Positions 26,143 through 62,289 of a stretch of DNA of 64,000 nucleotides are shown here, piece after piece. The notes below the pieces were generated by a model. That model saw nothing but the letters and a program-made list of their open reading frames with translations, did not search any database and was not told the origin of the DNA. The position numbers were made by a program, and so were the translations under genes. The stretch is from Leptolyngbya sp. SIO1E4 (GTDB lineage: Bacteria; Cyanobacteriota; Cyanobacteriia; Phormidesmidales; Phormidesmidaceae): the NCBI GenBank assembly GCA_010672825.2, contig JAAHFU020000004.1, positions 186,001 to 250,000 on the forward strand, in the 5' to 3' direction. Position 1 is the stretch's first letter. Each line of letters begins with the position of its first letter.

Positions 26143-26994
26143 TCACAACAAGGCTTGAATGCGATCGCGATAGGCCGCCCCGTCTAAGCCGCGCCCCGTG
26201 GAGGCAGTGGCTGGGTTAATCCGCTCATTGATGGCATTGATGCGCGCCTCTGGATGGGGGTGGGTACTGAGAAAGGCAGGGGTCGCATTGGGTTGATCCA
26301 GCAATTTTTGTAGAAAGTCAACGGCGGCCCTGGGGGCATAGCCTGCTTGAGTGAGCAGTGCTAACCCGACTTCATCAGCCTCTAGCTCATGGACACGACT
26401 ATTGGGGCGATGCAGGGCTAGCTCTACCCCCAGGGAGATCGCGGCGTTTTGATCTAAGCCCCCAGCGGTCAAAACACCTTCTGCAATGGCCGCCTGCTGC
26501 AATTGTTGAATGGCATGGCGGCGGTCTACATGGCCAATTTCATGAGCAATCACGCTGGCCAGTTGAGCCTCATTATCCGCAGCTCGCAACAGCCCAGTGT
26601 TTAAGTAAACAAACCCACCCAGAGTGGCAAAGGCATTCACCTGATCCTCTTCAATGATTTGAAAGGTATAGGGAATTTGGGGGCGATGGGTGCCTTGCAC
26701 TAATCGCTGTCCGAGGCCATCAACATACTGGATAATGCTGGAATTATCATACACTCGCACCTCTTGCAGGATTTGCTGATTGACTTGCTGGCCTAATTCA
26801 ACCTCCTGCTCATCGGAAAGGTTAGAGAGCTGAATAATGCGCACACCCTGGAAAATCAGATCCAGGATGTCGGTATCGGCCTTAGCGAACGGCACCGCAA
26901 CAACGCTGCTAAGGCCAAAGATCATCGCCCCAGCCAGGGAAAGCCAGCGACGGAAATGACGGCGCTGTCGCTCAGTACCTCGTAGCGTCTTCAT
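26143..26994 (-). CDS. M48-family metalloprotease (BepA/Oma1-like)
   Basis: 283 residues. The N-terminus is basic and then hydrophobic (RRHFRRWLSLAGAMIFGLSSVVAVPFAKA), a signal peptide or membrane anchor. The zinc site is HEIGH in SVIAHEIGHVDRRHA, and the downstream Glu ligand lies in ELEADEVGL. It should degrade or quality-check envelope proteins. It is the first gene of the run M48, CBS-CP12, 88 aa, ftsH, all on the minus strand with short gaps before ftsH. The GGATAATGCTGGAATTATCA segment inside it (26730-26749) matches the partition-site candidate at 18 of 20 bases, possibly by chance. Confidence 0.93.
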   Translation of the reverse strand: MKTLRGTERQRRHFRRWLSLAGAMIFGLSSVVAVPFAKADTDILDLIFQGVRIIQLSNLSDEQEVELGQQVNQQILQEVRVYDNSSIIQYVDGLGQRLVQGTHRPQIPYTFQIIEEDQVNAFATLGGFVYLNTGLLRAADNEAQLASVIAHEIGHVDRRHAIQQLQQAAIAEGVLTAGGLDQNAAISLGVELALHRPNSRVHELEADEVGLALLTQAGYAPRAAVDFLQKLLDQPNATPAFLSTHPHPEARINAINERINPATASTGRGLDGAAYRDRIQALL

Positions 26995-54799: not shown

Positions 54800-55861
54800 T
54801 TATTCCTCTTCTAAGGATCTTGCCTTTTCACTCTCTAGTTCCGCGACAACTGTCTGTAGCTGGGTTTCCAGTTGCTCCACAGAGGGAAGGTTTGCCTGCA
54901 AGTTCTGCGGCAATTGATGCGTCGTAATGGCGATCGGCGTAGAGATGTTTCGCAAAGCGTACTCAGCCGTAGTTTTATTCTTAGAACGGCACAGAATGAT
55001 ACCAATTGTAGGGCTGTCATCAGCATGACGCAGCATGTCATCAACCGCTGACACATAGAAATTCATCTTGCCAGTGTATTCCGGCTTAAACGGGGTCACT
55101 TTGAGATCAATCACCACATAGCAGCGTAATTGGACATGGTAAAACAGCAAGTCAATATAATAGTCTTCACCATCCACCTGCAACGGGTACTGACTACCCA
55201 TAAAAGCAAACCCAATCCCTAGCTCCAGCAAGAACTCTCGCATTCGTTCGACCAACGCCTTCTCTAGCTCCCGCTCTTGTACATTGCGACCAACGGTCAA
55301 AAAGTCAAAGTGGTAGGGATCTTTGATGAGCTGTTGTGCCAGATCAGACTGTGGCGGGGGCAGGGTGCGACCAAAGTTAGTAATGGCCCCACCCTGCCGT
55401 CCGTACAAGTTCGAATCAATCTGCAGCGCTAGTACGTCGCGACTCCAGCCATTTTCGTGGGATTGTTGTGCATACCACAGCCGCTCTTCCAGGGTCTTCA
55501 GCTTGTCTAGCAGTAATTGATTATGTCGCCACGGTATTTGTGCAGCGCTACGCTGCACAATTTCATCTTCAGGATATGCCTCGGCAAAAGCCCTCATGTA
55601 AGCCAGGTTTCGGGGTGAAAATCCCTTAATTTCTGGGAACGCCTGCTTCAAATCTTGGGACAGGCGTTTAATGACCTTGCTACCCCAACCTTCCACATTC
55701 TGCCGACTCAGAATATCTCGACCAATTTGCCAGTAAAGCAGGATAACTTCTCGGTTAACAGCCAGCGCCGCCTTAATCTGAGCAGTTCGAATCCGCTGCT
55801 TCAGATCACTCAGAAAAGCCGTATATTTCTCTTCCGGAAATAGAGCGTTTTGACGGGGCAT
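54800..55861 (-). CDS. YhcG-family (DUF1016) PD-(D/E)XK nuclease-like protein
   Basis: 353 residues. The N-terminal DUF1016_N domain is clear (FLSDLKQRIRTAQIKAALAVNREVILLYWQIGRDILSRQ...GWGSKVIKRLSQDLKQAFPEIKGFSPRNLAYMRAFAEAYP). The C-terminal PD-(D/E)XK domain has the acidic residues in DGEDYYIDLLFYHVQLRCYVVIDLKV. The family includes E. coli YhcG and is often linked to restriction-modification or DNA repair, but no partner genes are here. It is alone on the minus strand just left of the partition region, ended by a strong hairpin. The ATG at 55861 begins MPRQNALFPEE with only weak ribosome-binding sequence. Confidence 0.9.
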   Translation of the reverse strand: MPRQNALFPEEKYTAFLSDLKQRIRTAQIKAALAVNREVILLYWQIGRDILSRQNVEGWGSKVIKRLSQDLKQAFPEIKGFSPRNLAYMRAFAEAYPEDEIVQRSAAQIPWRHNQLLLDKLKTLEERLWYAQQSHENGWSRDVLALQIDSNLYGRQGGAITNFGRTLPPPQSDLAQQLIKDPYHFDFLTVGRNVQERELEKALVERMREFLLELGIGFAFMGSQYPLQVDGEDYYIDLLFYHVQLRCYVVIDLKVTPFKPEYTGKMNFYVSAVDDMLRHADDSPTIGIILCRSKNKTTAEYALRNISTPIAITTHQLPQNLQANLPSVEQLETQLQTVVAELESEKARSLEEE

Positions 55862-56156: not shown

Positions 56157-56176
56157 TGATAATTCTGGAATTATCA
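56157..56176. promoter_or_regulatory. candidate ParB-binding site (parS-like), copy 1
   Basis: TGATAATTCTGGAATTATCA has 9-bp inverted arms (TGATAATTC / GAATTATCA) around TG. The identical 20-mer lies inside the parB gene at 58222. A half site CTGGAATTATCA is at 56433-56444. It lies 340 bp before parA. Binding by ParB is inference. Confidence 0.6.
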
Positions 56177-56432
56177 TCCATATGTTATTTCAGCAGGCAG
56201 AATCGTTACTTTGACCCGTAGTTTGTTTGTCCTTTCACAAATTATCTTGGTGAAATGAGTGATAAAGGCTCCTATCAATGACCTGTCTTCAGGGTTATTC
56301 ATCCCTTTCATCTTGGCACTCGTTGAATCTCTCTTATAATCTCCCCTCAGATCATCCCCCCATTTATGGGCAAGATGACTCCATATCTATTCATGCGATC
56401 GCATACGATTACAAAAATCATATTTTTTTGTG

Positions 56433-56444
56433 CTGGAATTATCA
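56433..56444. promoter_or_regulatory. half site of the parS-like element
   Basis: CTGGAATTATCA matches the right half of the 20-mer at 56157 and lies about 70 bp before the parA start. A weaker relative AATTCTCTGGAATTCTCA is at 56484-56501. Both would suit autoregulation of parAB. Confidence 0.45.
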
Positions 56445-56514
56445 TTCGCTATTAAGATATGAATGCGCTTCAGCTTAATCGAAAATTCTCTGGAATTCTC
56501 AACCCTACAAATCT

Positions 56515-57336
56515 ATGCCTCAACGTCGCATTGCCATCATGTCCAACAGCGGTGGAGTTGGGAAAACAACTCTCACAGTTAATCTCGCCTATCAACTGGC
56601 GCGGCTCCAAAAGCGGGTGGCGGTTTTTGGGTGTGATCCCAACGGCTCTCTCACACTCTTTTGTGGCCTCGAAGATCCACCTGATGCTAATAACACCCTC
56701 GACTATGTTCTCCGTCAGGAATTTACAGGGGATTACCCCCTTTTCCCCACTTGGGCGGATCACCTCAACAGTATTGATGCTTGTCTAGGTGGTCTTGTGC
56801 TGACTGAAACAGCTCAGCGTTTGGTTTTGAGTAAACGGGGAGAATACTTGCTCGCTGATAAGTTAGAAGATTATCCTTTGCCCCATGATGTGATTATTTT
56901 TGATTGTCCCGGTACTATCGAGCAGATTCACACCGTTGCCCTGGCAGCTTCTACCCATATTCTCTTAACCCTCAAACCTGAGGACAAAGACATTGATGCC
57001 TTGGCCAAACTACTCAACTGGATTTATGAAACCCGTCAAGAACTGCGGCTACGACCCAAACCAGAGATTTTAGGCGTAGTTCCGAATGGCTTCAAGGATC
57101 GAGCGATGCACCGCGATAACCTGGGTCTTTCTAAACTTGAGGGTATCGAAAGCCTGCCTGACATTCTTAAACAACTCAATATTCCGATGTTTCCGGTCAT
57201 CAAAGACAACGCCTACATTGCGAATGCTGCAGCTGCTGGGTTGCCGTTAGGCATTTATCGGTCTGGTGAATCTATCAATGAAATTTATCGCAAGATTGCG
57301 ATCGCAGTTCTAGAGGCTAATGGGGGAGACGAGTAA
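56515..57336 (+). CDS. parA: ParA-family partition ATPase
   Basis: 273 residues. The deviant Walker A is SNSGGVGKTTLTVNLAYQLARL, followed by VAVFGCDPNGSLTLF (A' motif) and VIIFDCPGTIEQI (Walker B). The short N-terminus (MPQRRIAIM then Walker A) makes this a small ParA (type Ib-like) without an N-terminal HTH, so repression of the operon would fall to ParB. It drives plasmid or chromosome segregation by ATP-dependent movement. The parB gene follows 2 bp after the stop. The upstream sequence holds the parS-like repeats. Confidence 0.93.
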   Translation: MPQRRIAIMSNSGGVGKTTLTVNLAYQLARLQKRVAVFGCDPNGSLTLFCGLEDPPDANNTLDYVLRQEFTGDYPLFPTWADHLNSIDACLGGLVLTETAQRLVLSKRGEYLLADKLEDYPLPHDVIIFDCPGTIEQIHTVALAASTHILLTLKPEDKDIDALAKLLNWIYETRQELRLRPKPEILGVVPNGFKDRAMHRDNLGLSKLEGIESLPDILKQLNIPMFPVIKDNAYIANAAAAGLPLGIYRSGESINEIYRKIAIAVLEANGGDE

Positions 57337-57337
57337 G

Positions 57338-58402
57338 ATGGCACGCCATAGTAGAAGACCCATGAGTACGATGTTCAATCAGGCTGTTGGGGCCCAGAAA
57401 GAGGAAGAAATAGCCCATCTCAAGGCTGAAATTGAGCGTCTTCAGACCACTACAACCACGACTCATCGTGACCCAGGGTTTACTCGGCTGAACGTCAGCC
57501 AAATCGTAGCGTTGCGTCTGCCTGAAAATCTGAAACAGCCAAGACGCTATTTTGACCCTGTAAAAATAGCAAAGCTGCGGGACTCAATCCAAAAACATAA
57601 CGGCGTATTAGAACCCATTCTCGTTCGCCCTACTGCAGATGGGCTTTATGAAACCATCAGTGGTGAGCGTCGTTGGCGATGTTGCGTTGATCTCAACATT
57701 GAGACGATTCCAGCAATGATTACGGAGATGGACGATGAAACCGCTTTAGAGGTCGCGCTAATTGCCCATCTCCTGAGTGAAGACATTAGTGCAGTTGAGG
57801 AAACCGACTCAATTATGGGACTGTTGATGTTACGCTTACAAATGCCCTTTGAAGCCGTCAAGCAGTTCTTAATTGCCGTTAAAAATTATCAGACACGGGG
57901 CGATCGCTCAGAGATTGCTGAAGATAACATCGAGAAAGTCGGCATCGCTGAAGCAATCTTGGAAGAGTTTGATCTTAAAGTTGGGAGCTTTGTTTCAAAT
58001 CGGCTTCCGCTCCTCAATCTAGCCACTGTCATTTTAGAGGCGGTCCGTTCAGGGCAAATCAGCCCAACCAGCGCCACGCTCATCAATCGGGCTCCGGTTG
58101 ATCTTCACGAGCACCTGCTAAAACTTGGGAAAGACATGACCAAAGCCGAACTGCAGGAAACTATTGCCAAAATCAAGGTGGAAAGAGGCCTCCACACCAC
58201 CGCCAAAGGCTCCCGCAGTCGTGATAATTCTGGAATTATCAACTTGTTTCCCACCTACGATCACATCAACAGTCAGCTAAAGCTAATCCGCAAAAAGAAG
58301 AAACTCTTAGCGGATCAAAGAGTACAAATTTGCCTTAATAAGATGGATAAAACTATTCAAGAAATTGAGGCCATCGCCCAAGAGAAAGGGATCAAGCTCT
58401 AG
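57338..58402 (+). CDS. parB: ParB/Spo0J-family partition protein
   Basis: 354 residues. After a coiled-coil-like N-terminus (QAVGAQKEEEIAHLKAEIERLQ) comes the ParB core: VSQIVALRLPENLKQPRRYFDPVKIAKLRDSIQKHNGVLEPILVRPTADGLYETISGERRWRCC, with the GERRWR box, then ALEVALIAHLLSEDISAVEETDSI and an HTH segment. It binds the centromere and recruits ParA. ATG 57338 has a purine-rich GGGAGACGAG 5-15 bases upstream and lies 2 bp after the parA stop. A copy of the parS-like 20-mer is inside its 3' third (58222). Confidence 0.92.
   Translation: MARHSRRPMSTMFNQAVGAQKEEEIAHLKAEIERLQTTTTTTHRDPGFTRLNVSQIVALRLPENLKQPRRYFDPVKIAKLRDSIQKHNGVLEPILVRPTADGLYETISGERRWRCCVDLNIETIPAMITEMDDETALEVALIAHLLSEDISAVEETDSIMGLLMLRLQMPFEAVKQFLIAVKNYQTRGDRSEIAEDNIEKVGIAEAILEEFDLKVGSFVSNRLPLLNLATVILEAVRSGQISPTSATLINRAPVDLHEHLLKLGKDMTKAELQETIAKIKVERGLHTTAKGSRSRDNSGIINLFPTYDHINSQLKLIRKKKKLLADQRVQICLNKMDKTIQEIEAIAQEKGIKL
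58222..58241. promoter_or_regulatory. candidate ParB-binding site (parS-like), copy 2, inside parB
   Basis: TGATAATTCTGGAATTATCA, exactly the 20-mer at 56157. It codes for DNSGIIN in parB, so a coding origin alone does not demand this exact palindrome. Centromere sites inside par operons are known for several plasmids and chromosomes. Confidence 0.6.
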
Positions 58403-60790: not shown

Positions 60791-61921
60791 CTACTCTCCT
60801 CCGTGTGCCTTGAGTTTTTCAGGGTTGATCTGAAACTGAATTGACGACACACGACGCTTACCGGGGAGTTCTTGTGCCCCTACGATGTAGCCGTCTTGCT
60901 GGAGTTCCTCTACCGTGCGCCAAAAGATCTGGTTATTCCGTGAAGAGTTTGCGCCTAGCAGATCAAGATTCTTAAACAAATACCGTTTTGAAATCGTCAA
61001 GTATTGACCATCTTCAGGGCGATCCCACTTCATGCGGCTGGCTAAATACACCAGCAGCTTGGTTTTGTAATCATGCTTGGCATTGCTGCCGAGACGTTGA
61101 CTAATATCCAGGGTATTTGCGAACAGCACATAGTCACCTGTCTTAGCTGGGCCGTCAAAAAACTCCAGCGACACGGTGTAAGCATCCGCGAGTTCATAGG
61201 TGTAGTCTGCGGCTTTAGCCAGGTCAAAATCGCGCGGGACATTATCAATTTCATAGTCTCGAATGCGCAACACACTTTTAATCGTCACTTTAGCCCCAAC
61301 GCTATTGCCTTTACGTAGGGACTGGGCAAACACCAGTTCAGTACGGTGCAAGGCCACCAGGTCTCGATGCAGTTGCGATCGCAGCTTTGAGGCAAACCCT
61401 CCGTCTTTAGTGCGTGTGTATCCCAGGGCTTCCAGCAGCTCATTAGACCGGAACGAGACTAAAGGGCCACTCCCTTGACGGGCTGCTTCACGATACAGAT
61501 ACAGCACAATTGAAACTTGGCGTGGATTCAAAAACGTCAGCAGCGCCATAATCAAGCGCTGAATCCGCCGATCCTGAATTTTCTCTAACCCCTTGGTGAT
61601 GCCATGATCCAGACAAGAAGCCAGATCCAAGCTGGAATACTGTTCTTTGAGTTCTTCCCATTCCTCTTGTGAAAGATCTTCGAGCGGCACTCGTCGCGTA
61701 ACGGCGACCTCAGCATCATCTCTGGGATCCGTCTCAACCCGCATCTCTAGATAGTAACCATCACCATCAGAACGCAGAATGGGGAGCTGAACATCAGGAT
61801 TCTTAGCGGCAGCAGCAGCTCGTGGCAGCACCATCAAGAGCTGACCATCGACGGGAAATGTATCCGTTTTCTCTTTCAAATTTGCGGTATTGCTCACCGG
61901 TCTAACGCTCAATGGCTTCAA
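60791..61921 (-). CDS. plasmid replication initiator protein (Rep)
   Basis: 376 residues. It is helix-rich with a winged-helix pattern: RIQRLIMALLTFLNPRQVSIVLYLYREAARQGSGPLVSFRSNELLEALGYTRTKDGGFASKLRSQLHRDL is a first DNA-binding unit, and YLTISKRYLFKNLDLLG... with a following helix, near residues 300-345, a second. Two winged-helix units are typical of iteron-binding initiators. It starts about 55 bp from the first of ten iterons (61977), so it should bind them to start replication and repress itself. Named by context and fold; I cannot assign a Rep family. Confidence 0.82.
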   Translation of the reverse strand: MKPLSVRPVSNTANLKEKTDTFPVDGQLLMVLPRAAAAAKNPDVQLPILRSDGDGYYLEMRVETDPRDDAEVAVTRRVPLEDLSQEEWEELKEQYSSLDLASCLDHGITKGLEKIQDRRIQRLIMALLTFLNPRQVSIVLYLYREAARQGSGPLVSFRSNELLEALGYTRTKDGGFASKLRSQLHRDLVALHRTELVFAQSLRKGNSVGAKVTIKSVLRIRDYEIDNVPRDFDLAKAADYTYELADAYTVSLEFFDGPAKTGDYVLFANTLDISQRLGSNAKHDYKTKLLVYLASRMKWDRPEDGQYLTISKRYLFKNLDLLGANSSRNNQIFWRTVEELQQDGYIVGAQELPGKRRVSSIQFQINPEKLKAHGGE

Positions 61922-61976: not shown

Positions 61977-62289
61977 CCTATAACTCCGGCGTACGTCTTT
62001 GGAGAAGGTGCCTGTAACTTTGGCGTATGTTTTTGCCCATAACTCTGGCGTATATCTCTGCGCTACCCTGTAACTTTGGCGTATATTTTTGCCTATAACT
62101 CTGGCGTATCTAGTCTTAAAGCTTTTAGGCTGCACGCTACATGAGATAAAGGCTTTTTCAACTGGGTCTATAACTCCGGCGTATATTTTTGCCTATAACT
62201 CCGGCGTATTTGAGGGGGTTAGCCTATAACTCCGGCGTATGCTTTTGTCTATAACTCCCGCGTATTGAGAGCCTGTAACGCTGGCGTAT
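61977..62289 (+). repeat. ten-copy iteron array (probable plasmid oriV)
   Basis: 18-bp units close to CCTATAACTCCGGCGTAT start at 61977, 62011, 62036, 62067, 62092, 62167, 62192, 62223, 62248 and 62272. Copies 2-5 and copies 6-9 form two blocks with identical spacing (25, 31, 25 bp), offset by 156 bp. Some units read CCTGTAACTTTGGCGTAT. All point the same way, away from the initiator gene. This is the arrangement of an iteron-regulated theta replication origin; binding by the adjacent Rep is inference. Confidence 0.88.

Follow-up and report, generated by a model that had tools for sequence, protein, structure and literature searches.

Two copies of an identical 20-bp palindrome, one upstream of parA and one inside parB, were found at a parAB operon of the cyanobacterium Leptolyngbya sp. 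SIO1E4. They are very probably the parS sites of the operon's own ParB protein; together they would form the centromere region of a replicon of 0.96 Mb. Judged from its sequence, the system appears to be a ParABS variant with a new parS family, characterized by a centromere within parB itself and by a ParA that lacks the signature lysine.

The parAB Operon and Its Replicon

The window, i.e., the whole stretch of 64,000 nucleotides analyzed here, comprises positions 186,001–250,000 of contig C4 (963,703 bp). C4 does not contain a 16S rRNA gene, the only one of the genome being located on contig C2, and the minimum of its cumulative GC-skew lies at approximately 248 kb, about 4 kb off parAB (242–244 kb). 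These two observations suggest that C4 is a large replicon in its own right, the origin of which is close to parAB. The relevant features of the window are the following:

56157–56176, no strand: site 1, proposed ParB-binding (parS) copy TGATAATTCTGGAATTATCA, exact; also found 5′ of parA in the related genomes G036 and G046
56313–56340, plus strand: promoter-like element TTGGCA-16-TATAAT between site 1 and parA, 11 of 12 positions matching the consensus, assigned by this match only
56433–56444, plus strand: half site CTGGAATTATCA, 71–82 bp 5′ of the parA ATG, with a presumed function
56492–56501, plus strand: weak half site GGAATTCTCA with one mismatch, just 5′ of parA, which may be due to chance
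56515–57336, plus strand: parA, ParA-type ATPase of 273 aa (Pfam AAA_31 3e-23, CbiA 7e-18; Walker A NSGGVGKTT)
57338–58402, plus strand: parB, 354 aa, ParB_N CTPase domain, helix-turn-helix (HTH) domain and C-terminal helices (Pfam ParB_N 9e-23; the model matches Noc/ParB folds)
57980–58018, plus strand: recognition-helix region SFVSNRLPLL, assigned by alignment, model and co-variation
57998–58000, plus strand: codon of N221, the residue proposed from the residue-base match to read palindrome base 7
58222–58241, no strand: site 2, the identical 20-bp palindrome in the part of parB encoding the C-terminal linker, exact; kept in G036, G046, and G052

In the Walker A motif of ParA, the signature lysine of the deviant box (KGGxxKT) is replaced by serine and the P-loop lysine is kept. 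The same lysine-to-serine change is reported as a distinguishing mark of the carboxysome protein McdA (PMC6328274). Many plasmid ParAs of the loci surveyed below likewise have serine or alanine at this position. Since its ParA lacks the signature lysine, the system was classified as a variant and not as a standard member of the ParABS systems.

The parB gene follows directly on parA, with an alternative start being possible at an ATG at 57320. Its product contains the sequence GERRWR (GERRxR motif), of which G109, E110, R112, and R114 are invariant in 21 homologs, and is thus predicted to bind CTP. The AlphaFold model has a mean pLDDT of 80, and its fold matches Noc as well as ParB structures. 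Residues 287–302, the region encoded around site 2, are among the few stretches with a pLDDT below 50, as would be expected for a flexible linker.

Three further features lie close to the par locus. A gene for a DUF1016/YhcG-type PDDEXK nuclease (54800–55861, minus strand) adjoins it. The gene at 60791–61921 (minus strand) encodes a protein of unknown family, of which relatives with 77–82% identity are found near parAB in several loci; a role as replication initiator would be a guess. Beside this gene, two arrays of imperfect 25-bp repeats (62015–62265) are possibly iterons.

Two Exact Copies in the Genome

The initial annotation had described an identical 20-mer at both positions and a half site at 56433–56444, and had proposed a ParB centromere. 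Both copies are indeed exact (arms of 9 bp around a central TG), and the half site is present. Site 1 lies 339–358 bp 5′ of the parA ATG; site 2 starts at the third position of a codon and encodes the peptide DNSGII. The palindrome differs from the canonical chromosomal parS TGTTTCACGTGAAACA of 16 bp. The pattern TGATAATTCNNGAATTATCA occurs at two places only in the 8.22 Mb genome, namely the two parAB copies, against approximately 1e-4 chance copies expected from the base composition, so that the check for further copies on the rest of the replicon yielded no exact one.

When up to three mismatches were allowed, the window contained five matches, with the two exact copies counting on both strands, against 0.02 expected from shuffled sequences. 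The sole further match, the two-mismatch copy GGATAATGCTGGAATTATCA at 26730–26749, is located 29 kb from parA and probably due to chance. Across the whole genome, the same threshold yielded three weaker places, about as many as were obtained with the reversed control. The idea of more copies along the replicon was rejected on these grounds.

Conservation in Related parAB Loci

Relatives that keep the 20-mer share approximately 61–66% ParB identity with the window. In G036 and G046 (approximately 61–62%), the exact 20-mer is present both 5′ of parA and within parB, where a tandem copy with one mismatch lies 48 bp further on. Both genomes also contain CTGGAATTATCA approximately 60 bp 5′ of parA, matching the half site of the window; site 1 and the half site can be aligned to these loci although the intergenic DNA is otherwise poorly conserved. 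The gene pair p58460/p59134 lies 5′ of parA in G036 and G046 and 3′ of parB in the window, whereas site 1 stays by parA. G052, whose parB ranks among the closest, contains a copy with one mismatch in parB and an exact copy at the end of a separate short contig on which no parA is found. Altogether, a search of 65 genomes of the family yielded seven exact sites in four genomes, six of them at the family parAB and one on the short contig of G052.

In a class-wide sample, G240 was the only additional genome with a site, 8.9 kb from its parB. There, TGATAATTCTAGAATTATCA (L142:14298) is the sole perfect palindrome in a stretch of 18 kb, and the parB concerned is a family member without an internal site.

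In relatives with 35–50% identity, the core ATTCnnGAAT (or AGTCnnGACT) is kept, while the arms differ and the copies within one locus change together. The arm TGA[AG]AATTC is found in G015, G016, G020, G056, G063, and G258, CTATTATTC in G000 (contig C6), G049, and G217, and TGATTATTC in the second systems of G015 and G020 as well as in G056 (C11). The genome of the window contains a second parAB (G000, contig C6, L059) with palindromes of its own, one upstream (CTATTATTCCAGAATAATAG) and one within parB (CTATTATTCCGGAATAATAA). Most of the distant relatives carry the internal copy in a loop of the HTH domain, whereas in the lineage of the window it lies in the C-terminal linker, and in several distant loci a copy starts at the parB stop codon. 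The peptides encoded at these differing internal positions are alike because the site retains its reading frame.

The comparison of homologous parAB loci, which had been proposed as a check, thus shows the 20-mer at both places in G036 and G046 and, with one mismatch, in the parB of G052. Together with the concerted change of the arms in distant loci that keep both places, and with the residue-base co-variation in a sister group described below, this supports the interpretation of the palindromes as a ParB centromere.

parB-Internal Sites Across the Plasmid Family

A survey of 103 parB loci was evaluated against genes with shuffled synonymous codons; related loci are not independent in these counts, and kinship is addressed by a tree only for the residue-base match. 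A perfect palindrome of nine pairs inside parB was present in 55 genes (0.8 expected, at most 5), and a palindrome common to parB and its flank in 36 of the 103 loci (1.5 expected, at most 5). With a definition based on the core, 94 of 103 loci contain a site and nine have no recognizable one; in 81 of 103 the site is inside parB, usually in a variable loop of the HTH domain. An internal site therefore appears to be the rule in this plasmid family.

The larger sister group is characterized by the core AACGTT with very diverse arms, and most loci of this type have a copy inside parB only. When AACGTT occurs in frame in parB codons 110–215, five to seven of the seven outer positions are symmetric in 61 of 61 cases, against just two to four in six of the seven occurrences elsewhere in parB. 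Outside the Cyanobacteriota, a Thermus plasmid contains GGGCCATAACGTTATGGCCT in parB, and matching copies 5′ of parA and in parB are present in a Deinococcus plasmid. No comparable internal palindrome was found in the parBs of Pseudomonas, Methylomonas, and Thermaerobacter (one locus each). Avoidance of similar sites among co-resident plasmids went in the right direction, but was not significant (one similar pair against 1.9 expected).

A Recognition-Helix Residue Matches One Base of the Site

Among 49 non-redundant loci of the AACGTT type, the strongest co-variation of all pairs of protein columns and site positions links base 7 with one column of the recognition helix (z of 22, the next pair reaching 11). 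The pairing holds without exception in all 68 AACGTT-core loci: T with N (39), A with S (16), T (8) or K (1), and C with H (4). S, T, and K were pooled into one class post hoc, after the data had been seen, and the other arm was used for the asymmetric site of L199. On a tree built without the recognition-helix column and the columns encoding the site, base, residue class and joint state each change 13 times, compared to a mean of 33 and a minimum of 28 for shuffled residues.

In solved ParB and Noc structures, the co-varying column corresponds by alignment to the N of the recognition helix. In Caulobacter ParB, N178 contacts parS (PMC7383237), and by our own reading of the numbering the co-varying residue is probably its equivalent. 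The window itself combines N with T at base 7, as the rule predicts. There is hardly any variation of residue and base within its subgroup (core ATTCnnGAAT), and the rule was therefore transferred from the sister group; exceptions are G027, G040, and G035, which have N with G, and G215, in which the residue is deleted and the base is G. Although indirect, the residue-base match speaks strongly for binding of the palindrome by ParB.

Alternative Explanations

The palindromes might be bound by ParB and yet function chiefly as autoregulatory operators of parAB, with the true centromere being located elsewhere. One full copy, the half site and the promoter-like element 5′ of parA would fit such a function. 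However, site 1 ends approximately 140 bp 5′ of this element, loci with the parB-internal copy alone prevail in the AACGTT group, and no other repeated palindrome was found near the parAB of the window. We therefore regard this explanation as unlikely. A regulatory role in addition to a centromere function, for example on parA expression, is conceivable for site 1 and the half site.

Binding of a different dimeric protein, such as a repressor or recombinase, appears very unlikely. It is true that a related 20-mer in the viral contig L046 adjoins a recombinase gene, but the sites track ParB and not its neighbors, as illustrated by the p58460/p59134 pair switching sides, and a ParB residue co-varies with a base. 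The L046 site itself is single, lies on an unrelated GC-rich contig and was regarded as a chance match, given the very large size of the collection.

There is even less reason to assume that the parB-internal copy acts as an mRNA hairpin affecting translation or decay of the parB transcript. From its sequence, a perfect palindrome could form 7 to 8 pairs with a loop of 4 to 6 nt. Nevertheless, imperfect pairs show no G-T bias on the sense strand (6 G-T and 9 A-C in 47 distinct sites), the centre (AACGTT or ATTCnnGAAT) is almost invariant, and copies of identical sequence are found outside genes. That the copy is kept for the peptide DNSGII, with the palindrome as a by-product, is scarcely credible: the peptide core does recur (DNSGII, ENSRI, xNVx), but it lies in differing loops across lineages and, in the window, where the model shows the least order, the codons are the exact palindromic ones, and the pattern is destroyed by synonymous shuffling.

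Proposed Function and Relation to Known Systems

We thus favor a function of both palindromes as parS. A ParB dimer would bind each 20-mer via its HTH domains and, by analogy with other ParBs, might then load CTP, close into a clamp and spread. By analogy with other ParABS systems, the resulting ParB-DNA complex would be moved by ParA, leading to segregation of the replicon. The parB-internal copy is best viewed as a functional DNA site embedded in the coding sequence of a tolerant linker, so that the parB gene would carry both the reader and the tag.

Sites of this kind have precedents. For the ParABm-parSm system of the Thermus thermophilus megaplasmid pTT27, a replicon-specific palindrome inside parBm is reported to be bound by ParBm, as shown by gel shift and foci (PMC4409726; PMC10085754). 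Like the window system, this is a plasmid ParABS with a ParB of a related group and a site within parB; it differs in that the published 14-bp parSm AAGGACGCGTCCTT lies at codon 219, whereas the window has a different 20-mer in the C-terminal linker and an additional intergenic copy. At codon ~155 of the same parBm (strain HB27, L228), we observed a palindrome of the cyanobacterial type in the HTH loop, TAGGGACAACGTTGTTCCTA, apart from the published parSm. It fits the rule (H with C), and no mention of it was found in the accessible part of PMC4409726. In Bacillus subtilis, parS-359 is likewise located inside the parB gene (spo0J; PMC4442127). It is, however, chromosomal and one of about ten canonical 16-bp sites of the origin region, whereas the window palindrome is one of two exact sites genome-wide and of another sequence.

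The window ParB shares the CTPase and HTH fold with Caulobacter ParB and Noc (PDB 6t1f, 7ol9), including the probable equivalent of the parS-contacting N178 (PMC7383237). It differs from both by its site and by extra residues inserted between the two helices of the HTH. In canonical parS the fourth base from the centre is T, which agrees with the residue-base rule. The palindromic sites of RK2 KorB serve regulation as well as partition; they are many and spread over the plasmid, in contrast to the two sites at the par operon of the window. In its fold, KorB (8qa9) is a ParB-family match to the window protein.

Internal parS sites in parB are hence already known from a Thermus megaplasmid and B. 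subtilis. In a literature search largely confined to texts outside subscription journals, neither a parS of cyanobacterial plasmids nor a family-wide parB-internal site was found described. For these reasons, we consider the system a ParABS with a putative new family of parB-internal sites.

More generally, it seems reasonably likely that many cyanobacterial plasmid parBs and their relatives in Deinococcota contain the centromere in frame within parB. Protein specificity and DNA tag would therefore be passed on as a single cassette and would diversify jointly. This diversification would mostly involve one residue of the recognition helix, which reads the fourth base out from the centre (N-T, S/T/K-A, H-C), with the tag being able to move between loops, linker and the parB stop codon.

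For dozens of cyanobacterial plasmids, these results predict the centromere and offer a simple rule linking residue and base; they also point to a second candidate site in a studied Thermus megaplasmid. In practice, they may guide the construction of stable cyanobacterial shuttle vectors. A parB gene carrying its own tag would explain how a partition module might relocate, or switch its specificity, as a unit, which bears on the origin of plasmid incompatibility groups.
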